Shown: one piece after another, positions 3,843 to 13,957 of the stretch
Position numbering within the stretch: the first letter of the stretch is position 1
Layout of the letters: each line of letters begins with the position of its first letter
Virus record (IMG/VR): IMGVR_UViG_3300020146_000003
Coordinates: 1 to 37,323 of that record
DNA: 37,323 nt
Source of the DNA: a virus
Reading direction: 5' to 3' (one strand)
Notes under the pieces: generated by a model
The model's database searches: none
What the model was told of the DNA's origin: nothing
Seen by the model: the letters and a program-made list of their open reading frames with translations, nothing else
Program-made: the position numbers and the translations under genes

Positions 3843-4553
3843 ATGATCACGCGAGCATTCGTTCTTCACAGCGGCGGTATCGACAGCTCGACCACCCTGG
3901 CGATGGCTGTTGCCGAGTTCGGCGGAGACAACGTCATAAGCGTCGGCGTCAACTACGGCCAGCGGCATTCCATTGAGATGGAGTACGCCTCCAAGTTCGC
4001 TGACAAACTCGGAGCCAGGCGGACTATGCTGCGACTGGGGCCACAGCCGACAAGCATGCTGACGGACGACTCGATCGAGATCCCCAAGAAGTCCTATGCA
4101 GATCTGGAGCCAGGGATCAGTCCCACCTACGTGCCGTTCCGCAATGGCCAGATGCTGTCGCTCATCGCAGCGTATGCGCATCATTGGGTCAGTGACATCG
4201 CCGGCTACCGCCAGGGCGATGACGAGCAGATCTCTGCGCAGATCTGGTTCGGAGCGCATGCCGAAGACGCGGCGAATTGGGCGTACCCTGACTGTACTCC
4301 TGAGTTCGTCGGCGCGATGGCTAACGCCATCTTCATCGGCACGTACCAGACAGTTCGGCTGGTGACTCCGTTCATCCATTCCACCAAGGACGAGATCGTG
4401 CGGCGCGGCGTCAAGCTCGGCATCGACTACAGCTTAACCTGGTCGTGCTATCATGGTGGCGAGATCCACTGCGGCGAGTGCCCGACTTGCATTGCGCGCA
4501 AGGAGTCGTTCGCCAAGAACCACATGCAGGATCCCACCCAGTACGCCAAGTAG
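3843..4553 (+). CDS. queC: QueC, 7-cyano-7-deazaguanine (preQ0) synthase
   Basis: A 236-aa cytosolic enzyme that converts 7-carboxy-7-deazaguanine to preQ0 using ATP and ammonia. The PP-loop signature SGGIDSS (10-16) binds ATP. The C-terminal zinc site is complete: C202, C210, C213 and C216 in CYHGGEIHCGECPTC. Length is normal for the family. Starting at the ATG at 3843 keeps the conserved N-terminal strand directly before the PP-loop, with GGAAGG just upstream; the frame is open 48 nt further up but that part has no family match. It heads a run queC-queD-queE-folE, the complete set for making preQ0 from GTP. Combined with the DpdA-like gene at 8914, the product is most likely destined for phage DNA rather than host tRNA. 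Confidence 0.95.
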   Translation: MITRAFVLHSGGIDSSTTLAMAVAEFGGDNVISVGVNYGQRHSIEMEYASKFADKLGARRTMLRLGPQPTSMLTDDSIEIPKKSYADLEPGISPTYVPFRNGQMLSLIAAYAHHWVSDIAGYRQGDDEQISAQIWFGAHAEDAANWAYPDCTPEFVGAMANAIFIGTYQTVRLVTPFIHSTKDEIVRRGVKLGIDYSLTWSCYHGGEIHCGECPTCIARKESFAKNHMQDPTQYAK

Positions 4554-4574
4554 CGCGAGGCGGGCGATCAGGTT

Positions 4575-4592
4575 GCAGTCGCAGTCGCAGTC
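4575..4592. repeat. three tandem copies of GCAGTC
   Basis: Three exact hexamers in a row in the 57-nt gap between queC and queD, 18 nt before the queD start and just before its ribosome binding region. The gap is too short to hold a promoter plus operator, and the repeat may be simple slippage. It could alter spacing or structure before queD. Confidence 0.6.
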
Positions 4593-4610
4593 CAATGGGA
4601 GTAGCACGAC

Positions 4611-5084
4611 ATGCACTTCTCGACAAAGACCTATACGCATGCAGAAGGGCTGTCGTGTTGCTTCCGGCAGTGGAGAGCTAGTCACTCGCACTGCCAGTAC
4701 CTGCACGGGTATGCGATAGAGGTTAAGTTCCAGTGGGAAGCTACTGAGCTGGACGCTCGGAACTGGGTGGTAGACTTCGGCGGGTTGAAGCACGTCAAGG
4801 AGTGGCTGAAGGAAACCTTCGACCATAAGCTCCTCGTCGCCAAGGACGACCCTAAGCTGGAGGAGCTACATGCCCTGAACCTGATGGGGCTTGCTCAGGT
4901 AGTAGAGGTGGAGGCCGTAGGCTGCGAAGCCTTCGCCAAGATGATCTACGACTACGTCAACTCCTGGACGCGTCACAGCTTCCGCAGGCTATCAGTTGAC
5001 GGGATATACGTGTATCCCGTCAAGCTGGTCCAGGTTGAAGTGCGAGAGCACGGAGGAAACTCAGCCGGCTACAGGAGGGATTAA
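4611..5084 (+). CDS. queD: QueD-like 6-carboxy-tetrahydropterin synthase
   Basis: A 157-aa member of the T-fold PTPS/QueD family, which turns 7,8-dihydroneopterin triphosphate into 6-carboxy-tetrahydropterin, the second step to preQ0. The catalytic cysteine region SHCQYLHGY (C28), the WVVDFGGLK strand (52-60), the catalytic DH pair (D71-H72) and the late VREH glutamate are all in place. The usual CxxxHGH has become CxxxHGY (Y34), so one canonical zinc ligand is replaced. Extra histidines at 25 and 27 may compensate, and I believe a longer subfamily with this HGY form exists. It is longer than E. coli QueD (about 120 aa) through insertions around 10-25 and 75-100. GGGAG lies upstream. queE starts 5 nt after its stop. 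Confidence 0.88.
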   Translation: MHFSTKTYTHAEGLSCCFRQWRASHSHCQYLHGYAIEVKFQWEATELDARNWVVDFGGLKHVKEWLKETFDHKLLVAKDDPKLEELHALNLMGLAQVVEVEAVGCEAFAKMIYDYVNSWTRHSFRRLSVDGIYVYPVKLVQVEVREHGGNSAGYRRD

Positions 5085-5089
5085 CCGCA

Positions 5090-5902
5090 ATGCAGAGCAC
5101 GACACGAGAAGAGCAGGACTCTGTCCAGATAAAGGCTGCACTGGACAAGAAGCTCCCGCTCATGGAGATGTTCGGCCCTACGATCCAAGGAGAGGGGGCC
5201 GTCATTGGGGCAGTAAGCTACTTCATCCGACTCGGCGGATGCACGTACCGCTGCTCCTGGTGTGACAGCATGCACGCTGTCGACCCCAAGGAGATCCATG
5301 CACGAGCTGAGTGGCTGACGCAGGCGGAGATCGCCGACAGGCTGCTCGCAATGCATCGGGAGAAGTCGTACGGCTTCTGGGAGACGCAGATTGCCCAGCA
5401 AGAGCCGTTCGTGACCATCTCAGGCGGCGACCCACTGATGTGGGACCTATACGACATGGTCAGCCTCCTAGGTGAGAACTTCCGTGTTGCCGTCGAGACG
5501 CAGGGAGCATTCTACAAGCCCTGGGTCAGGCTGTGCGACGTGGTGACTGTCTCGCCGAAGCCGCCGAGCTCCAAGATGGACGGCCGGCTGGACTACAATG
5601 TCCTCTCGAAGTACCTCGACCTGGGTAAGCAGCTCAGCTTCAAGGTGGTATGCTTCGGCAACGAGGATATCCAGTTCGCTCGCGATCTTCACCAGAAGTA
5701 CCCGCAGGTCCCTATGTACCTGAGTTGCGGTACGGATCGTCCTCCGGGCAATGCCAAGATCGGCATTGTCGGAGTCCAGCAGGCCATCTTCTGGAAGATG
5801 GACTGGTTGACGAAGGCAGTCTTCGAGCTCCCAGACCTTTGGGACTGCCGTGTTCTTCCGCAGCTCCACGCGCTGATGTGGGGCCACAAGCAAGGAGTAT
5901 AG
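5090..5902 (+). CDS. queE: QueE, 7-carboxy-7-deazaguanine synthase (radical SAM)
   Basis: A 270-aa radical SAM enzyme that rearranges 6-carboxy-tetrahydropterin to 7-carboxy-7-deazaguanine. The substrate loop MFGPTIQGEG (27-36) is typical of QueE. The cluster motif CTYRCSWC (C51, C55, C58) is the canonical CxxxCxxC that holds the SAM-binding 4Fe-4S cluster. TISGGDPL (about 108-115) is the SAM-binding GGE-like strand. AGGAGGG inside the end of queD, about 11 nt upstream, serves as ribosome binding site. It is part of the tight queC-queD-queE-folE run, so the four enzymes should be made together. Confidence 0.93.
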   Translation: MQSTTREEQDSVQIKAALDKKLPLMEMFGPTIQGEGAVIGAVSYFIRLGGCTYRCSWCDSMHAVDPKEIHARAEWLTQAEIADRLLAMHREKSYGFWETQIAQQEPFVTISGGDPLMWDLYDMVSLLGENFRVAVETQGAFYKPWVRLCDVVTVSPKPPSSKMDGRLDYNVLSKYLDLGKQLSFKVVCFGNEDIQFARDLHQKYPQVPMYLSCGTDRPPGNAKIGIVGVQQAIFWKMDWLTKAVFELPDLWDCRVLPQLHALMWGHKQGV

Positions 5903-5908
5903 GCTGCT

Positions 5909-6646
5909 ATGTCTAAGACCGTACGGATCAAGCCGGGCCCGAAGAGTCCGGTAGTCGAGCGGGTCAATCGGCTCCTGGAGGAGCAGGCCCAGAAGATGGT
6001 CGACCCTCGCTACGAGGCGATCAGGAAGTTCCTGCCGCAACTGCCCTACCAGAACTGGCAGAGCGCTAAGGGCCTCCTGGAGTCGGCTCTCTCCCTCCTC
6101 GGGATGCAGCAGAGCCGAGACAACATCGAGACGCCGGCTCGCTTCCTGCAGTACATCGGCGAGTTCATCAACCCCTCGCACGACCCGAGCTCGGTGGTCG
6201 CCCTCTCAGAGGTGTTGGGCAATCCCTTTCCTACTCCTGCTACCGAACGGGACGGGATTGCGGGTATGGTCGTCCAGACGAACATCCCGTTCCGGATGGC
6301 TTGCGGTCACCACCTACTCCCCGCAATGGGGCACGCTTCGATCGGGTACATCCCACGTAACTTGGTAGTCGGGCTGTCTAAGCTCGCTCGCCTGGTCGAC
6401 TGGGTGGCCACTCGAGAGCCGGGCATGCAGGAGAAGATTGGCAACGACATCGCCGACGGTCTACTGAGGTACCTCGAGCCGATCGGCGTGATCGTAGTGA
6501 TCTCCGCGGAGCATACCTGCATGGGCTGCCGCGGCGTGGCCTGTCCTGACGTTCCGACGATCACCTCTACCCTCAGGGGGGCCTTCCGTGACAACACCCA
6601 AGCGCGGGAGGAGTTCTTCAACCTCATCAGCACCCACCGCCGATAG
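5909..6646 (+). CDS. folE: FolE, GTP cyclohydrolase I
   Basis: A 245-aa T-fold enzyme that opens GTP to 7,8-dihydroneopterin triphosphate, the entry step of both folate and preQ0 synthesis. Zinc ligands are visible as C132 and H135 in ACGHHLLP and C204 in SAEHTCMGCRG. The motifs IGYIPRN, VVGLSKLAR and IETPARF match family I. The usual CEHH is CGHH here, so the glutamate after the first zinc cysteine is lost. AAGGAG stands about 12 nt before the ATG. A phage-borne copy bypasses host control of GTP use and supplies the QueD substrate; it may also help folate supply for the ThyX-like enzyme downstream. Confidence 0.93.
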   Translation: MSKTVRIKPGPKSPVVERVNRLLEEQAQKMVDPRYEAIRKFLPQLPYQNWQSAKGLLESALSLLGMQQSRDNIETPARFLQYIGEFINPSHDPSSVVALSEVLGNPFPTPATERDGIAGMVVQTNIPFRMACGHHLLPAMGHASIGYIPRNLVVGLSKLARLVDWVATREPGMQEKIGNDIADGLLRYLEPIGVIVVISAEHTCMGCRGVACPDVPTITSTLRGAFRDNTQAREEFFNLISTHRR

Positions 6647-6683
6647 CGCTCTCGACCTGGCTTGAGCTAAGCGGAGGGTGAAG

Positions 6684-6908
6684 ATGCCAAGGCGAGTCAG
6701 ACTCCTTCTAGGTTATAACCTCAGTCGGCTCTTCAAGGGAGTCGGCCTCGTGATGCTGATATGCATCGGCCTCTACGGAGTCTGGCTTGTCTTGGTTCCC
6801 TTGATACTGGGGGCTGTATGCTTGTGGGGAGTCCTCGTGCTGGAGGATTGCCAGCAGGAGTATGCGCAGGAGCTGCAGGAGCATGACTACCATCGAGATG
6901 CCGAATGA
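6684..6908 (+). CDS. membrane protein with two hydrophobic segments, unknown
   Basis: A 74-aa protein with a basic start (MPRRVRLLLGYNLSRLFKG), a long hydrophobic stretch split by a proline (VGLVMLICIGLYGVWLVLV, then PLILGAVCLWGVLVL) and an acidic C-terminal tail rich in Glu, Gln and His. It reads as a helical hairpin in the inner membrane. I chose the ATG at 6684 because GGAGGG at 6673-6678 lies 5 nt before it, rather than the GTG at 6678. It follows folE by 37 nt and overlaps the next gene. I recognise no family. It is unlikely to be the main holin, since it sits in the early arm. Confidence 0.6.
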   Translation: MPRRVRLLLGYNLSRLFKGVGLVMLICIGLYGVWLVLVPLILGAVCLWGVLVLEDCQQEYAQELQEHDYHRDAE

Positions 6909-7152
6909 GACCCACACAGAGGGTAAGTACCTCATTCGCAGGTTTACTCCTCCAGTTGGCGAGCCTGGGATCATCATCGAGTGGCGAGAAGGCGACGAGC
7001 AGTACGCAGTTGCTCGGCAGGGCAATCGCTACTGGATGTACTCCTCCGTACTCATTGGCGGCGCAGTACGCCACGAGGAGTTCGTCGAGCAGTCGGCATC
7101 TGAGATAGGGCAGAACATCCTCCAGGCGCTGACCGATGCCGTCGGCTCCTGA
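6883..7152 (+). CDS. hypothetical protein, 89 aa
   Basis: A small soluble protein with alternating strands (KYLIRRFTPP, GIIIEWREGDEQYAVAR, RYWMYSSVLIGG) and a C-terminal helix (SEIGQNILQALTDAV). I recognise no family. The start is uncertain: ATG codons at 6862, 6883 and 6898 are all in frame and none has an ideally spaced ribosome binding site. The gene overlaps the one before by 26 nt and the next by 17 nt, which points to translational coupling. Confidence 0.55.
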   Translation: MTTIEMPNETHTEGKYLIRRFTPPVGEPGIIIEWREGDEQYAVARQGNRYWMYSSVLIGGAVRHEEFVEQSASEIGQNILQALTDAVGS

Positions 7153-7336
7153 AGACCTTCTGAGACACAACCTAGGTGTCAGCGAAGCAGCGGACGCCGT
7201 TCGAAGGGCTGCAGAGTACAGAGCCAGCATCGTGTGGTCATGCATCGACCCGACTGAGCAGGCCCCTCTGTGGTGGGTTAAGGGGTACGAAACCCTGGAG
7301 CAAGCCATACAGGAACACTGGAGGGATCACCTATGA
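7136..7336 (+). CDS. hypothetical protein, 66 aa
   Basis: A small protein of mixed charge. The N-terminal half is helical (EDLLRHNLGVSEAADAVRRAAEYRASI) and is followed by WSCIDPTEQAPLWWVKGYETLEQAIQEHW. No recognised domain. It overlaps the upstream gene by 17 nt and shares ATGA (7333-7336) with the downstream gene, so it belongs to the same transcript. A role cannot be assigned from sequence. Confidence 0.5.
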   Translation: MPSAPEDLLRHNLGVSEAADAVRRAAEYRASIVWSCIDPTEQAPLWWVKGYETLEQAIQEHWRDHL

Positions 7337-7761
7337 CACAAGGCATTACTATGACGACCATCCTTGCGGACGACTACCGCAATGACTTCAAGGAGGCCAT
7401 GAACCCCAAGCGGATGACCCTCAACCCGGCGCCTCTAGCGCTGAAGCTGATTGAGGAGGCCATCGAGGCGGCCCTCGCTGCCGGCATCAAACTAGAGCAG
7501 GTCGAAGCTGCCTGCCAGATCTTCGTCGGGCGGGAGAAGCTTCGGCTTGATCCGACTAAGGACGGCATCTTTAACTACAAGGCTGCCCGCGATGAGCTGG
7601 CCGACTGCGACATCGTCCACCGCACGATGCGAGGACTACTCGGCATCAGCGACGGCCTCCTAGGGGAGTCGGTGATCGAGAAGCGCCTGGTGAACCGCAA
7701 CCGCCTCTGGCGCGTCAACGAGTTCGGAACCCTCTCCAACATGGGCCTCAAGGATGGTTAG
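7333..7761 (+). CDS. MazG-like all-alpha NTP pyrophosphohydrolase candidate
   Basis: A 142-aa helical protein with the metal-binding signature of all-alpha NTP pyrophosphatases: EEAIE (E41, E42, E45) and, 43 residues later, ELAD (E88, D91). Members hydrolyse (d)NTPs to the monophosphate and pyrophosphate; phage versions are thought to clear unwanted nucleotides or lower ppGpp. Here it sits among nucleotide genes (folE before, thyX-like after), so cleaning or reshaping the dNTP pool for a phage with modified bases is a reasonable inference. The gap between the two halves of the motif is longer than usual, so this is a candidate only. GGAGG stands before the ATG. Confidence 0.6.
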   Translation: MTQGITMTTILADDYRNDFKEAMNPKRMTLNPAPLALKLIEEAIEAALAAGIKLEQVEAACQIFVGREKLRLDPTKDGIFNYKAARDELADCDIVHRTMRGLLGISDGLLGESVIEKRLVNRNRLWRVNEFGTLSNMGLKDG

Positions 7762-7846
7762 CCGATGGTATTACTGGGCCCTAGCCGGTGCTGTATGCGG
7801 CATCACACAGGCCATCATGACGGATATCCTCCACCGGCTCTTCTAG
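7754..7846 (+). CDS. 30-aa single-pass membrane protein
   Basis: A short ORF beginning MVSRWYYWALAGAVCGITQ and ending AIMTDILHRLF: one hydrophobic helix flanked by charged residues. It overlaps the preceding gene by 8 nt, and its stop ends 12 nt before the next start. The ribosome binding site (AAGG touching the ATG) is poor, so translation would depend on coupling. It is plausible because it fills the only gap between two genes and resembles the other tiny membrane proteins of this arm. Confidence 0.35.
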   Translation: MVSRWYYWALAGAVCGITQAIMTDILHRLF

Positions 7847-7858
7847 GAGACTGATACC

Positions 7859-8860
7859 ATGCCGGAGTATTCTGCCCAGATCATCAAGGACTCAGTCAGC
7901 CCTGATGGGTACCGACTGACTACAATGCGCCTGCGCTACTGGCGCGCCATCCATGACGAGTTGATGACGCACCGAGTGTTCACCCGAAATGCCAGCTCGT
8001 CTCGCGCCGTCCCTGTGGTCAAGATGATTGAGGAGGCGCAGCGCGACGACTTGCGTGCCGGCCCAATCGAATGGCACAAGGATCAGAAGGGCATGCAAGG
8101 CACCATCCCGCTGATTGGTGCCGAGGTAGACGAGGCTAAGCGGCAGTGGCGCCTCGCTGCCTGCGATGCAGCCTCTCGAGCCTCGTTCATGGTGAATCGG
8201 GGGCTGGGGCATAAGCAGACGATCAACCGCCTCCTGATGCCCTTCACCCACATTAACGTCCTGGTAACGTCAACCGACTGGCAGAACTTCTTCGGGCTCC
8301 GACTAGATTCGGGGGCTGCTCCTGAGATGCGACTGCTGGCGCAGAACATGTGGAAGGCCTACATCAGCTCCTCCCCCAAGCTGCTCCAGCCTGGGCAGTG
8401 GCACTTACCGTTCCTGGATGATGAGGATCTTAGCCCTCTGATGGATGCCCTCGGAGGGCTTCGGCAGGAGAGGCTCCCGACGGGAGCTGACTTCATGGAG
8501 CTATGCAAGAAGGTCTCTACGGCTCGCAATGCGAGAGTCTCGTACACGTCATTCGAGACGGGACAGCGATCTGAGCCCGCGGCGGATATCGGCCTGCATG
8601 ATCGCCTCGTCGGCTCACGGCCCTTGCATGCCTCACCGGCAGAGCACTGCGCCACCCCTGACAGTAAGGAGTGGGACCCTGAGATTGGCTCGATGTGGGA
8701 GCATCGTCAGGAATGGGGTAACTTCTACGGCTGGAGGCAGTACCGCAAGGCGCTCCCAGGGGAGAATGCCGCGGCGCTTCCGCCGGAGTATGAACAGGAA
8801 CTCGAGGAGTACATCCACAAGGAAGAGCAGCGTCTCGGGTTCCGCCTGCGCCTACGTTAG
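7859..8860 (+). CDS. thyX: ThyX-like flavin-dependent thymidylate synthase
   Basis: A 333-aa protein related to ThyX, which methylates dUMP using methylene-tetrahydrofolate, FAD and NADPH. The signature RHRxxSxxxxSxR appears as THRVFTRNASSSR (37-49): H38, R39, S47 and R49 are kept, while the first Arg is Thr and the first Ser is Thr. A second conserved block, NFFGLRLDSGAAPEMR, matches the ThyX region near the active-site arginine. It is longer than bacterial ThyX (about 220-250 aa), with an extra C-terminal 100 residues. AGGAGA at 7844-7849 supports the start. The changed motif leaves open that it acts on another pyrimidine. Its neighbours on both sides concern nucleotide synthesis and base replacement. 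Confidence 0.72.
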   Translation: MPEYSAQIIKDSVSPDGYRLTTMRLRYWRAIHDELMTHRVFTRNASSSRAVPVVKMIEEAQRDDLRAGPIEWHKDQKGMQGTIPLIGAEVDEAKRQWRLAACDAASRASFMVNRGLGHKQTINRLLMPFTHINVLVTSTDWQNFFGLRLDSGAAPEMRLLAQNMWKAYISSSPKLLQPGQWHLPFLDDEDLSPLMDALGGLRQERLPTGADFMELCKKVSTARNARVSYTSFETGQRSEPAADIGLHDRLVGSRPLHASPAEHCATPDSKEWDPEIGSMWEHRQEWGNFYGWRQYRKALPGENAAALPPEYEQELEEYIHKEEQRLGFRLRLR

Positions 8861-8913
8861 TGCGAGTGCAAGTGCAGTCTGGTTTGGATTGGTTAACATG
8901 GAGGGCCGATAAC

Positions 8914-9699
8914 ATGGGGAAGTATGCACCGGTAGCGCCGTACCCACTGCTCAAGGATCTGGCCAGCAGGCAAGCCCTAGAGCGGTATCACTTGCTGCTC
9001 GCCCATGAGGTGGCAGCTCACCCGTACGAGTACAACTCGGTCATCCCGGGGGACTCGTTCATCATCATGGACAACTCAGTCGTCGAGCTCGGAGCGCCAG
9101 TGAGCTGGGACATTATGTCTAGAGCCATTAGGACCTTCGAGGCCTGCCAGATGGCTGTCGTCCTTCCCGACGTCATGCTAGACAGTGCGCAGACTGTCGC
9201 TATGTCTCGACAGGCAGCGAACATCTGGATGCTCCCTCCGAACAGCTGCTACATGGCAGTCCCTCAAGGCCGCACGTTTGATGAGGTCGTCAACTGTGCT
9301 CGAGCACTTGCGGGGATCCCTGGCGTAGGGTATCTTGCAGTGCCCAAGTGCGTCGGAGACCTCGTCGGAGGCCGATCGCAGCTGGTGGAGGCTCTCTCCA
9401 ACATCCAGCTGCCGATCCCGATCCCGGGAGCTCATATCCATCTGCTCGGCTTCACCGACAACCTTGAAGACGACATGCGCTGCTGCCGCATGGATGCGGT
9501 GATGGGCATCGACTCGGCGGTCCCTATCCGTATGGGTATGGCTGGACACTACATGCACCTGGAGATGAAGGGTGACTACGCAGGTAGGCGCGGAACCTTC
9601 TGGCAGGACTACTCAGCCCCAACCTCCAGGCTGACCCGCCAGGCGCTGCAGAACGTCCACATGATTCGTACGTGGGCGTCACGCACCTACGGCCTGTAA
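8914..9699 (+). CDS. dpdA: DpdA-like DNA 7-deazaguanine transglycosylase (TGT fold)
   Basis: A 261-aa protein whose motif order matches tRNA-guanine transglycosylase and its phage relative DpdA, which replaces guanine in DNA with preQ0 or a derivative. Visible are FIIMDNSVVELG (D53, the general-acid position), LPDVMLD (85-90, like the TGT DxMxxxD strand), VPQG (116-119, like TGT VQGG), HLLG (176-179) and GIDSAVPIR (198-206), where D200 aligns with the TGT nucleophile Asp in FDCVxPTR. I chose the ATG at 8914, which has GGAGGG at 8900-8905; the frame is open 54 nt further up. There is no zinc-site cluster of three Cys and one His like that of tRNA TGTs, which fits the shorter phage DpdA. With queC-D-E and folE it completes a base-replacement pathway. 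Confidence 0.78.
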   Translation: MGKYAPVAPYPLLKDLASRQALERYHLLLAHEVAAHPYEYNSVIPGDSFIIMDNSVVELGAPVSWDIMSRAIRTFEACQMAVVLPDVMLDSAQTVAMSRQAANIWMLPPNSCYMAVPQGRTFDEVVNCARALAGIPGVGYLAVPKCVGDLVGGRSQLVEALSNIQLPIPIPGAHIHLLGFTDNLEDDMRCCRMDAVMGIDSAVPIRMGMAGHYMHLEMKGDYAGRRGTFWQDYSAPTSRLTRQALQNVHMIRTWASRTYGL

Positions 9700-9742: not shown

Positions 9743-12400
9743 ATGCCTGTCACCGATGTAGTCGTCCAGAATGCCGTAGCTCCTGAGCAGCCGAAGATTA
9801 TCCTCGCAGGGCCGAAGCCGAACCACCCCTCGGTGATAGGCAAGTGCGAAGGATGTCCTTACGGTGGGGGGAGATGCGGGTCGAGAGGGAATCCTGCAGC
9901 TCCTATCGTATTCATTGCAGAGGCTCCGGGAGCACAGGAGATTAGGTGGAAGCTGCCACTCGTCGGGCCGTCAGGTAAACTGTTCTGGGGTACCTTCCCC
10001 AAGAGCCTCAGGGAGTGGGGAATCTCGCCAGAGGATGATGTACTGATCCTGAATGCTGTTCAGTGCTTACCTCCCCGAGTCAAGAACGACGCAGCTAAGA
10101 CTACCGCAGCCATCTCCAAGGGAGCCACAATCTGCCGTCCGCGCCTGTTGCAGCAGCTACAGGAACACCCTAGGAAGCTGATTGTAGCAATGGGGAATCA
10201 CGCCACGCGCTCAACTCTGGGACTGGCGGACTCCAAGATTACTCAGATCCGTGGGCAGCTGATACCTTCCCCGCTGGCCGAGATTGGCGTAATCCCCGTA
10301 CTGCATCCTGCGGCGCTGCTTCGGGGCACAGGTAACTACAGGCAGTTCAAAGAGGACCTAGCCTACGCATTCGACCTCCTGAGGGGACTGCCGCCCAAGA
10401 AGCCGATCGAGTCTCGCTGGCAGATCCTAGACAGCGAGGGTATGATCGCCTACGCAGTGAACAACGTCCTGCTTCACCGTAAGGAGATTGCCTGTGATAC
10501 AGAGACTGGTGGATTTGATCCTCTCCTTCATGAGCTGCTCTGCCTCACCATGTGTGCCGATCCTGAACATGTATATGTGATTCCAGGGCCGCTAATCGCC
10601 AAGAGCGCCTCTCTCCGGAAGCTGTTCTCCCGCGAGGACATTCGCTTCACCTGGCAGAACGGCAAGTTCGACATGCGCTTCATGCGGCGCGACGTAGGAG
10701 AGATGTGCCGAGTAGACGATGACACTATGCTCATGTCGTATGCTCTGGACGAGCAGGGAGGCATTCACGACCTTGAACAGATTGCCGGCGACCTGATCGG
10801 AGCACCGGATTACAAGCATATGTTGAAGCCATACCTACCGAACAAGCAGACTTCGTACCGCGTAATCCCTAAGCCTGTCCTGTATCACTACGCGGCACTT
10901 GACACGACTAATACGCGGCAGATAGCCCAGATAATGCTACGCCGCATCATGGATGACAAGCATACTAGTAAGGCCTACCGCAGGGTGCTTATACCCGCAT
11001 CAGAGTTCCTGTACTGGATTGAGAAGTACGGCATCCGGGTTGATACCAAGAAGCTGGATAAGCTCCACCTGGAGTACATGGGTAATGCAGATCTGGTTAA
11101 GCAGGGGAAGATCCCCCCTGAGGAACTGGTAGTAGGTGAGATCCCGGAGGCCCTAGCTAAGGTGCAGGAGGCAGTCCGCGCTATGGGGGTCAACCAGGAG
11201 ATCAATCCTGGTTCGTGGCAGCAGGTAGCCTATATCCTGTGGGATGTCCTGAAGCTCAAGTCGCCTTGGGGACTAGGCAACAGATCGACCGACAAGTTCG
11301 TCCTAGAACGTATTCCGCAAGTACCCTTTGTCAAGGCGCTTCGTGACTACCGCAAGGCCGCCAAGGCTTATGCAACGTATGTCAAGGGGATCCGCAATGC
11401 AATACGCATTGATGGCCGTATTCATGCTACATATAAGATCCACGGTACCCGTACCGGCCGGCTATCTTCGGCAGAGCCTAACATGCAGAACATTCCGCGC
11501 GGTCCTAGGATCCGTGGGGTATTCTGGGCTGGGCCCGGTAGAGTATTCATCAAGGTGGATCTTAACCAGGCTGAACTCCGCTCGCTGGCTCTCCTCTCGG
11601 ATGACCCCTTCCTCAAGCCGCTCTACATTGAAGGGATTCGTTCTCTGCATGACGAAGCTGCCAAAGACGCATACCCGGCCTATGACAAGACCAAGAAGAA
11701 AACGGAGCCGCATGAGTCGTGGCTGATGCGGGCGAAGGCGGTGAACTTTGGTATCGTATACGGGCGAGAGGCTGCGAGCATTGCAGAGGAGTTCGGCATC
11801 CCTCTGGCTGAGGCCCAGCATATCATCGACCGGTGGTTCATCAGATCACCTGGGGCTAAGGCATTCATCGACGAGTGTAGGCAGGCACCTCTGAACAACC
11901 AGACCCTGATTACGCCGTTCGGCAGGAAGAAGCGACATCACGTTGTCACCGTCGAGAACCTCCATGCTCTCCAGAACGAGGCTAGCAATTTCCCTCATCA
12001 GTCCATTGCCTCTGATATTTGCCTCCTGGGGGCGGCAAAAGCCAGACCCATCCTCAGACCTTTTGACATACATCCTGTTAACGTTGTGCATGATGAAGCT
12101 ATGTTCGAATGCCCCGACCACGTGGAGCTCATCTCCTGGGCGAAGTTCGTCATCGAGCGCTGCATGGAGTCTATCCCCATCGAGTGGGGGCTCACCGGAG
12201 TGCCGTTCAAGGCAGAGGGCGACGTTGGAGAATACTGGGCTGTATACCGAGACTCCAAGGAGCACCCCTATGACTACACTCCCCCCGACCCCTCCAACCC
12301 ACTTGCGCCTCCTGAATGGCTCAGAAGGTTCCTGCATGAGTCCCCCAACTATCCCACCCCCGAGTTTGCGAGACCGCACCAGGAAGTATTGGCTGGTTAG
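9743..12400 (+). CDS. DNA polymerase: uracil-DNA glycosylase domain + 3'-5' exonuclease + family A polymerase
   Basis: An 885-aa replicative polymerase with three parts. Residues about 30-215 are a family-4-like uracil-DNA glycosylase: CEGC (35, 38), NAVQC (108) and C131 give the four Fe-S cysteines, with AEAPG (59-63) and LHPA (187-190) as active-site motifs. Residues about 245-405 are a 3'-5' exonuclease: DTET (252-255), NGKFD (306-310) and YAALD (383-387). The C-terminal part is family A: motif A VDLNQAE (D606), motif B RAKAVNFGIVYG (K665, F669, Y673) and motif C VHDE (D784, E785). The arginine that precedes motif B lysine by four residues in E. coli Pol I is Leu here, with Arg at 663 instead. 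There is no 5'-3' exonuclease domain. The phage SPO1 polymerase is a known case of a UDG-like domain joined to Pol A. Confidence 0.95.
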   Translation: MPVTDVVVQNAVAPEQPKIILAGPKPNHPSVIGKCEGCPYGGGRCGSRGNPAAPIVFIAEAPGAQEIRWKLPLVGPSGKLFWGTFPKSLREWGISPEDDVLILNAVQCLPPRVKNDAAKTTAAISKGATICRPRLLQQLQEHPRKLIVAMGNHATRSTLGLADSKITQIRGQLIPSPLAEIGVIPVLHPAALLRGTGNYRQFKEDLAYAFDLLRGLPPKKPIESRWQILDSEGMIAYAVNNVLLHRKEIACDTETGGFDPLLHELLCLTMCADPEHVYVIPGPLIAKSASLRKLFSREDIRFTWQNGKFDMRFMRRDVGEMCRVDDDTMLMSYALDEQGGIHDLEQIAGDLIGAPDYKHMLKPYLPNKQTSYRVIPKPVLYHYAALDTTNTRQIAQIMLRRIMDDKHTSKAYRRVLIPASEFLYWIEKYGIRVDTKKLDKLHLEYMGNADLVKQGKIPPEELVVGEIPEALAKVQEAVRAMGVNQEINPGSWQQVAYILWDVLKLKSPWGLGNRSTDKFVLERIPQVPFVKALRDYRKAAKAYATYVKGIRNAIRIDGRIHATYKIHGTRTGRLSSAEPNMQNIPRGPRIRGVFWAGPGRVFIKVDLNQAELRSLALLSDDPFLKPLYIEGIRSLHDEAAKDAYPAYDKTKKKTEPHESWLMRAKAVNFGIVYGREAASIAEEFGIPLAEAQHIIDRWFIRSPGAKAFIDECRQAPLNNQTLITPFGRKKRHHVVTVENLHALQNEASNFPHQSIASDICLLGAAKARPILRPFDIHPVNVVHDEAMFECPDHVELISWAKFVIERCMESIPIEWGLTGVPFKAEGDVGEYWAVYRDSKEHPYDYTPPDPSNPLAPPEWLRRFLHESPNYPTPEFARPHQEVLAG

Positions 12401-12829: not shown

Positions 12830-13357
12830 ATGAAGATCTACCTTGCAACCAGCTGGAAGAACCCGTACTACCCTCGGGTACTCCAGGAGCTGAGGAGCCT
12901 TGGCCATGAGGTCTACGACTTCCGCGACCCGGAATATGCCTTCAAGTGGGACCAGGTCGGATTATCTGAACAGCGTCCGCTCCCACTGTCGGAGTACATC
13001 CGCGGCCTTGAACATCCTCGCGCTCGCAAAGGCTTCAAGCGAGACATGGATGCTGTTCGCTGGTGCGATGCCGTGGTGGTGCTTCTTCCTAGCGGGCGCT
13101 CGGCCCACATGGAGTTCGCCTGGTGCATCGGCGCAGGCAAGCCCGGCGTTATCTTCTGCCCGCAGACGTCGATCGGAGCCCTTGCTGAAGTCCCGGCGAT
13201 CGACGACCCGGACCTGATGTACTGCATGGCCGGTGAGCCGCGGGATATCTTCGTCCACACGGCTCTTCAGGCACACGAGCGGCTTACGTGGGCTCTGCTG
13301 AGCAAGGAAGGTACGGAGGCTCATGAGAGCCTCCGTACTCGCCCTGGAGTTGACTAG
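12830..13357 (+). CDS. nucleoside 2-deoxyribosyltransferase-like protein
   Basis: A 175-aa Rossmann-like protein. The N-terminal strand MKIYLATSWKN and the later WCDAVVVLLPSGRSAHMEFAW (79-98, catalytic-type Glu at E95) fit the nucleoside 2-deoxyribosyltransferase / dNMP N-glycosidase superfamily. Such enzymes break or exchange the N-glycosidic bond of deoxynucleosides. In this genome it could recycle or remove deoxynucleotides alongside the MazG-like and ThyX-like proteins; the exact substrate cannot be read. GAGGAG at 12813-12818 is the ribosome binding site, with long (11-nt) spacing. It is the last + strand gene. Its stop shares CTAG with the stop of the convergent endolysin gene, and its 3' end contains a perfect 12-bp hairpin. 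Confidence 0.68.
   Translation: MKIYLATSWKNPYYPRVLQELRSLGHEVYDFRDPEYAFKWDQVGLSEQRPLPLSEYIRGLEHPRARKGFKRDMDAVRWCDAVVVLLPSGRSAHMEFAWCIGAGKPGVIFCPQTSIGALAEVPAIDDPDLMYCMAGEPRDIFVHTALQAHERLTWALLSKEGTEAHESLRTRPGVD
13311..13338. terminator. 12-bp perfect hairpin at the convergence of the two arms
   Basis: GTACGGAGGCTC at 13311-13322 is followed by the loop ATGA and its exact reverse complement at 13327-13338. It lies inside the last codons of the + strand gene and 17 nt from where the convergent - strand endolysin ends. The position suits a bidirectional terminator between converging transcripts. No T run follows on either strand, so termination may be inefficient or may need a factor. Confidence 0.6.
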
Positions 13358-13716
13358 TTCTTGACGCCAAGGGCTGCTCGAGCGGAAGCGAAGTACTTCT
13401 CCCGTTCGGGCAGCCCATTGAGGCCACCGTTGATCCTTCGGGTGGTCGCTTGAAGATCGCCCTTGCAGTCCGAGAGCTTGCGCTCCTTCCAGAACCAGGC
13501 TGCTGAGAGCGCGGCATTCACCGGCTCCAGAAGCAAGTCTGGATCCTCGACGAGATCTAGCTTGAGCGCCTCGCCGCACTTCTTGTAGTTCGCCTTACCT
13601 GTGAGTTGGAAGATACCGCGACCTCGATACTTCCAGCCGTCACCGGGCTGATCGTTGCCCAGATCTTCCCTGAAGCCGTAGACGAAGTTGGCGATCTCTA
13701 CCGGCTTCCGCTGCAC
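13354..13716 (-). CDS. GH19-type endolysin, C-terminal part (frameshifted)
   Basis: The distal 120 aa of a chitinase-like (GH19) lysozyme that cuts peptidoglycan. RKPVEIANFVYG and GDGWKYRGRGIFQLTG are the standard middle block of phage GH19 endolysins, where substrate-binding residues lie. The natural N-terminal half, including the catalytic HE, is encoded just upstream in another frame (13640-13957), offset by +1. A GTG at 13716 could start this part alone, but it lacks an obvious ribosome binding site and would miss the catalytic Glu. I therefore read the two frames as one gene broken by a frameshift between about 13717 and 13746. A sequencing error, a real mutation or programmed frameshifting are all possible. 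Confidence 0.75.
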   Translation of the reverse strand: MQRKPVEIANFVYGFREDLGNDQPGDGWKYRGRGIFQLTGKANYKKCGEALKLDLVEDPDLLLEPVNAALSAAWFWKERKLSDCKGDLQATTRRINGGLNGLPEREKYFASARAALGVKN

Positions 13717-13957
13717 TCTCCGTCCTGACTCGTGTGGGGAAGGTATTCATCAGCCCCCGCCACGAGTAGTTGAGGTTCTCGACCAGCCTGGAGAGCTCGA
13801 CGGACTCGTGAGCTGCCTGAGCTAAGAACATGGCTTCCAGGAGGGGTTTCCCGTCAATCGCCGCGTAGGCGAAAGCCCGGCTAAGCGGATCAAGCCATCG
13901 ATCCAGATGGGGATTCGATGGCATGACCTGCTTCAGTTGTACGACCGAGAGCGTCAT
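13640..13957 (-). CDS. GH19-type endolysin, N-terminal part (frameshifted)
   Basis: The N-terminal 75-80 residues are a real GH19 endolysin start: LDRWLDPLSRAFAYAAI, then LEAMFLAQAAHES (H50, E51 with the first catalytic Glu) and ENLNYSWRGLMNTFPTR, a block that in relatives runs straight into YAxxPxxIAN. Here that continuation is in the +1 frame, and the last 25 residues of this frame (Arg/Gln-rich) are out-of-frame translation. The start overlaps the previous stop as TGATG. The lysis cassette context (holin and lipoprotein upstream) supports the assignment. Confidence 0.75.
   Translation of the reverse strand: MTLSVVQLKQVMPSNPHLDRWLDPLSRAFAYAAIDGKPLLEAMFLAQAAHESVELSRLVENLNYSWRGLMNTFPTRVRTESAAEAGRDRQLRLRLQGRSGQRSAR

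Follow-up and report, generated by a model that had tools for sequence, protein, structure and literature searches.

What does a virus gain from a complete set of genes for 7-cyano-7-deazaguanine (preQ0), and which enzyme, if any, places that base in its DNA? This question is raised by IMG/VR virus record IMGVR_UViG_3300020146_000003, of which positions 1 to 37,323 were analyzed here as a single stretch, hereafter the window. DNA containing 7-deazaguanine is a known phage camouflage against bacterial DNA-cutting enzymes. A first-pass annotation had listed a preQ0 pathway and a protein with the fold of tRNA-guanine transglycosylase (TGT) and DpdA-like motifs, and had predicted 7-deazaguanine in the phage DNA from them. 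Homology, predicted fold, and gene linkage support that central prediction. We consider it likely that the virus synthesizes preQ0 and that the 261-amino-acid (aa) product of the plus-strand gene at 8914..9699, a predicted DpdA-like DNA-guanine transglycosylase of a compact subfamily, exchanges part of the guanine for it, which would protect the phage DNA.

Four adjacent plus-strand genes, queC, queD, queE, and folE, occupy positions 3843-6646, with intergenic gaps of 57, 5, and 6 bases. Their coordinates were checked and each has a family match, as first annotated. The preQ0 synthase encoded by queC (3843..4553; PF06508, E=2.4e-50) has SGGxDS, YGQRHSIE, VPFRN, and YPDC motifs and cysteines C202, C210, C213, and C216. 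It is counted as canonical because this motif set is that of preQ0-making QueC proteins, including YxQxHxxE, VPxRN, and YPDC (PMC13329287). The protein stands alone, without an amidotransferase fusion, and is 62% identical to QueC of a relative (G001/L018). The product of queD (4611..5084; PF01242, E=3.2e-16; phrog_2389 (QueD), E=7e-39) is a 6-carboxy-tetrahydropterin synthase of a variant subtype, SCCFRQW..HC..LHGY, that retains catalytic residues C28, D71-H72, and E106. The 7-carboxy-7-deazaguanine synthase encoded by queE (5090..5902), a radical SAM protein of the B. subtilis type with a CxxxCxxC motif, scored 221.7 bits against TIGR03365 (cut-off 206.1). GTP cyclohydrolase I, encoded by folE (5909..6646; PF01227, E=4e-43), retains zinc and catalytic residues C132, H134, H135, H202, and C204. 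Judged by sequence, the predicted preQ0 pathway is complete, with FolE, QueD, QueE, and QueC all intact and family-confirmed.

The QueD subtype recurs among unrelated phages. Its pattern, SCCFRQW..(S/T)HC..LHGY, differs from the usual AAH...C..LHGH, with the catalytic Cys, Asp-His, and Glu unchanged, and the variant possibly represents a remodelled metal site. It is found in MaInes, MiCath, BcepGomr, and others, where it adjoins other preQ0 genes, and also in loci L002, L105, L106, L107, L108, and many of L050-L095. Stenotrophomonas phage Moby encodes it with no other annotated que gene within 4 kb.

The open reading frame (ORF) of the 261-aa protein starts 2267 bp after folE, in agreement with the 2.3 kb first given; small ORFs and a ThyX-like gene (7859-8860) lie between. 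In a tblastn search of phage records, relatives were confined to Brevundimonas phages MaInes and StAshley (33%), Weizmannia phage Youna2, and the Bacillus BSP7/BSTP group, and a scan of IMG/VR with an alignment of these relatives gave 80 loci. In a 54-member family alignment, D53, N54, E58, H176, G179, D200, and N247 are invariant, and D86, Q118, and R154 nearly so. D53 lies within IIMDNS and D200 within GIDSAVP. These two residues, already named in the first-pass annotation as DpdA-like motifs, are present in 54 of 54 members and are aligned with CAjan DpdA residues D63 and D206. The window protein groups in a tree with L017, L018, and MaInes. Its relatives were assigned to phrog_20335 and phrog_19058, both without an assigned function. 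When 84,980 genomes of bacteria and archaea were scanned with a single motif, one relative was found, on a contig of a metagenome-assembled genome, and the transglycosylase family thus appears to be mainly viral.

Profile comparisons place this family nearest to DpdA. When its profile was searched against the whole PDB (hmmsearch), the sole credible match was 7UI4 (E=1.6e-4, and 4.8e-5 with a second alignment), and this match spans the D200 region. Using hhalign, the family was matched to six phage DpdAs (CAjan, 9g, Dp-1, Saguaro, Mufasa8, and a phiSM protein) with 94% probability and E ~1e-7 over 158 columns, and window and CAjan residues were paired as D53/D63, H176/H187, and D200/D206. Control alignments of QueC, QueD, QueE, FolE, and PolA and the reversed family all gave 0-0.5%. 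The invariant H176 (54/54) aligns with His196 in 9g numbering, a residue conserved in DpdA and absent from DpdA2 (PMC6884629). PADLOC DpdA models matched six of the 54 family members; on whole phage records, the PADLOC DpdA model matched CAjan only. No significant sequence-family match linked the window protein to the classical phage DpdA families phrog_887/phrog_7068. The DpdA-like identity first proposed is therefore retained as homology at the profile level, but not as membership in the classical DpdA or DpdA2 families: by sequence family, the predicted enzyme is a separate compact branch (~260 aa), neither classical DpdA nor DpdA2 (phrog_10773).

The predicted structure points in the same direction. 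AlphaFold2, run on the family alignment, gave a model with a mean pLDDT of 92.5 and a pTM of 0.91. The top four Foldseek matches in the PDB were TGT structures 7a3x, 1wkd, and 1p0b and DpdA 7ui4, so a comparison with DpdA and TGT folds that could have overturned the assignment instead returned them as the best PDB folds. Matches in the viral library included phiST M4SLA5, nt-1 DpdA2, and phage proteins labeled queuine tRNA-ribosyltransferase. Taken together, the converging sequence and model evidence indicates that the 8914-9699 protein is most likely DpdA-like.

Linkage was analyzed for 84 viral loci gathered by transglycosylase sequence alone; some are near-duplicates, so they do not represent 84 independent events. 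At least one of queC, queD, queE, and folE was present within the fetched stretch in 76 of the 84 loci, and all four in 47. Every preQ0 gene (237/237) was on the strand of the transglycosylase gene. Of the eight loci without preQ0 genes, seven end within 2.5 kb upstream, the usual side of the preQ0 genes. The exception, the 168 kb contig L067, has a family member but lacks preQ0 genes within 10 kb and may take its preQ0 from the host. In most close relatives, folE and the transglycosylase gene nearly abut, and polA adjoins the transglycosylase gene in most related loci; in MaInes, Youna2, and BSP7, that gene lies between queC-D-E and polA. The family E-values and the occurrence of these genes together, on one strand, in dozens of viral contigs show that the gene set is not a chance assembly.

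The same fold could suggest a role in RNA. A TGT-like protein might act on tRNA or salvage bases while the cluster serves host tRNA queuosine during infection, and preQ0 is used for queuosine in many hosts (PMC6884629). We regard this as improbable. The C-terminal zinc site of TGT (three Cys, one His) is absent, the window protein having no Cys past residue 191, and the nearest profile is that of DNA-acting DpdA rather than TGT. With no QueF, the phage would not make preQ1, the substrate of bacterial TGT, and the gene that adjoins the transglycosylase gene in most loci encodes a DNA polymerase.

We therefore return to exchange of guanine in DNA, for which the following scheme is proposed. FolE, QueD, QueE, and QueC would convert GTP to preQ0, and the DpdA-like enzyme would swap guanine for preQ0 at a subset of phage DNA positions by a TGT-type mechanism. 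D200, the proposed nucleophile, would attack C1' of the deoxyribose, and guanine would depart. preQ0, held in a pocket including D53, D86, and Q118, would then be joined in its place, with D53 as the proposed general acid/base. The outcome would be dPreQ0 on a fraction of guanines and a block to some host restriction enzymes.

As to the final base, domain searches of the whole 37,323-base record identified no QueF and no glutamine-amidotransferase domain, confirming the first-pass annotation on this point. Neither was identified in relatives G001-G004 or in the complete genomes of MaInes, Youna2, and BSP7, all of which have stand-alone QueC. Because both activities are missing from the record and from these close or complete relatives, dPreQ0, as first suggested, is supported by sequence as the simplest product. 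The same insertion could end in another base if an outside or host enzyme converted it to dG+, dADG, dPreQ1, or another derivative, or if an earlier intermediate were inserted. This is unlikely, given the relatives just listed, yet it has points in its favor: the contig seems incomplete, two more distant relatives encode QueF, two encode amidotransferase-QueC fusions, and phage phiST has a family enzyme with FolE, QueD, and QueE and no recognizable QueC, which indicates that members need not depend on preQ0. The QueF genes, strong and true matches beside the same transglycosylase family, are in L040 (G012) and L066 (G021), for which dPreQ1 rather than dPreQ0 is predicted; the fusions are in L030 (G005) and L033 (G006). 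Weak QueF matches in many relatives were discarded as short T-fold matches, located inside folE where checked; only those of G012 and G021 were strong.

A route at the nucleotide level can also be imagined, since a nucleoside 2-deoxyribosyltransferase-like gene (12830-13357; phrog_12607, E=4e-34) and a weak dATP/dGTP pyrophosphohydrolase-like match are nearby. The deoxyribosyltransferase-like protein would lead to a preQ0 triphosphate that the polymerase incorporates, with full replacement of guanine. This would leave the base-exchange enzyme without a role, and we judge it the most remote of the explanations considered here. None of the deoxyribosyltransferase-like, ThyX, and pyrophosphohydrolase-like genes recurs in the related loci.

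The extent of exchange by the window enzyme may be gauged from characterized dPreQ0 phages. The locus resembles group 2 of Hutinet et al. 2019 (CAjan, Rosebush; PMC6884629) in having FolE, QueD, QueE, QueC, and a TGT-fold DNA enzyme and no amidotransferase, and it resembles CAjan in the position of the cluster in the replication region near the polymerase. It differs in the compact size of the enzyme (261 aa; the family hidden Markov model matched CAjan DpdA only at E=0.27) and in its polymerase, which is of family A with a uracil-DNA-glycosylase (UDG) domain. In Rosebush and CAjan, both with classical DpdA, dPreQ0 accounts for ~28% and ~32% of Gs, respectively, and deletion of CAjan dpdA abolishes dPreQ0 (PMC6884629). 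The general statement in the first-pass annotation that phages with this set replace guanine thus stands as to the presence of dPreQ0, but only about a third of Gs (28-32%) are affected. Its corollary, resistance to restriction enzymes, applies to some enzymes and depends on the enzyme, as CAjan dPreQ0 DNA is cut completely by EcoRI and SwaI (PMC6884629).

Other known systems share parts of this arrangement. The bacterial DNA preQ0 insertase DpdA (7UI4), the best profile match and among the top four folds, has in common with the window protein an HLLG motif and the second catalytic Asp region; its chain is 436 residues long rather than 261, and bacterial dpd islands contain many further genes, none of which was seen in the window. 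DpdA2 of Vibrio phage nt-1 (YP_008125322) is a fold match in the viral library and also neighbors preQ0 genes, but it has 464 aa, lacks the conserved His according to its published description, and was only weakly matched by hhalign (12.6% and 15.5%). Cellulophaga phage phiST CGPG_00065 (AGH56763) belongs to the same subfamily (E=7.7e-44), retains the motifs, and is beside folE, queD, and queE; phiST differs in its lack of a recognizable QueC. A 2023 study by Cui et al. in Nucleic Acids Research (NAR) reportedly found 7-deazaguanines in phiST DNA, which, if so, would be the closest support from experiment, and may also have named the compact branch. In another Cellulophaga phage, phiSM, CEPG_00053 (L100:3129-3851) is annotated as hypothetical and is near QueF and QueC; the classical DpdA motifs DSGAF, HALG, and VDS align, and this protein is likely the phiSM DpdA.

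Several observations weigh against preQ0 insertion by the compact enzyme. Single-sequence searches of Pfam, NCBIfam, PADLOC, and PHROGs assigned the 261-aa protein to no family, and the literature consulted reports no compact-subfamily member with demonstrated action on DNA. Foldseek gave only modest TM-scores to TGT and DpdA (0.39-0.62), and other TIM barrels ranked closely behind, with weaker E-values. Comparison with a lone E. coli TGT sequence was not significant and, while collinear at the nucleophile (D200 region), is too weak by itself. The variant QueD lacks the usual zinc-histidine set, two of its three His being replaced (AAH...HGH to CCF...HGY). Tailoring genes beyond the contig are also possible, because the contig is probably incomplete.

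This kind of system is already known, and the locus adds a member to it; its compact enzyme branch is unnamed in the profile libraries searched. A literature search for the branch name 'DpdA3' returned nothing relevant. Tentatively, and with somewhat less than even confidence, we propose that these proteins make up a third branch among the phage DNA-guanine transglycosylases, compact in size and almost entirely restricted to viruses. The branch would recognize DNA sequences of its own and be less strict in its choice of base, accepting preQ0, preQ1, or, as in phiST, an earlier intermediate, and dozens of phages in which the enzyme is now unannotated would then have 7-deazaguanine DNA. The isolate members listed here are annotated as hypothetical or inconsistently. 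Recognition of the branch widens the set of predicted modified-DNA phages to those of Brevundimonas, Weizmannia, Bacillus, and Cellulophaga and to many uncultured viruses, and it marks phages whose DNA may withstand restriction-based typing or cloning. The compact enzyme is also small and easy to assay.

In the remainder of the record, a capsid-like gene and head protease, tail, and endolysin genes were identified. No terminase or portal gene was identified in the record, and for this reason the contig is probably incomplete. Neither an Rfam nor a tRNA scan returned a hit in the window, and megablast of its first 25 kb against phage records gave no matches. The plus-strand gene at 9743..12400 encodes a family A (DNA polymerase I-type) DNA polymerase with an N-terminal UDG domain (PF00476, 4.1e-61; PF03167, 8.7e-21; PF01612, 2.3e-12), and a similar-looking relative of this fusion is present in L005. 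The endolysin (phrog_181; minus strand, 13354-13957) is encoded in two overlapping frames, 13640-13957 and 13354-13716, which may reflect a frameshift, a sequencing error, or a two-part gene.

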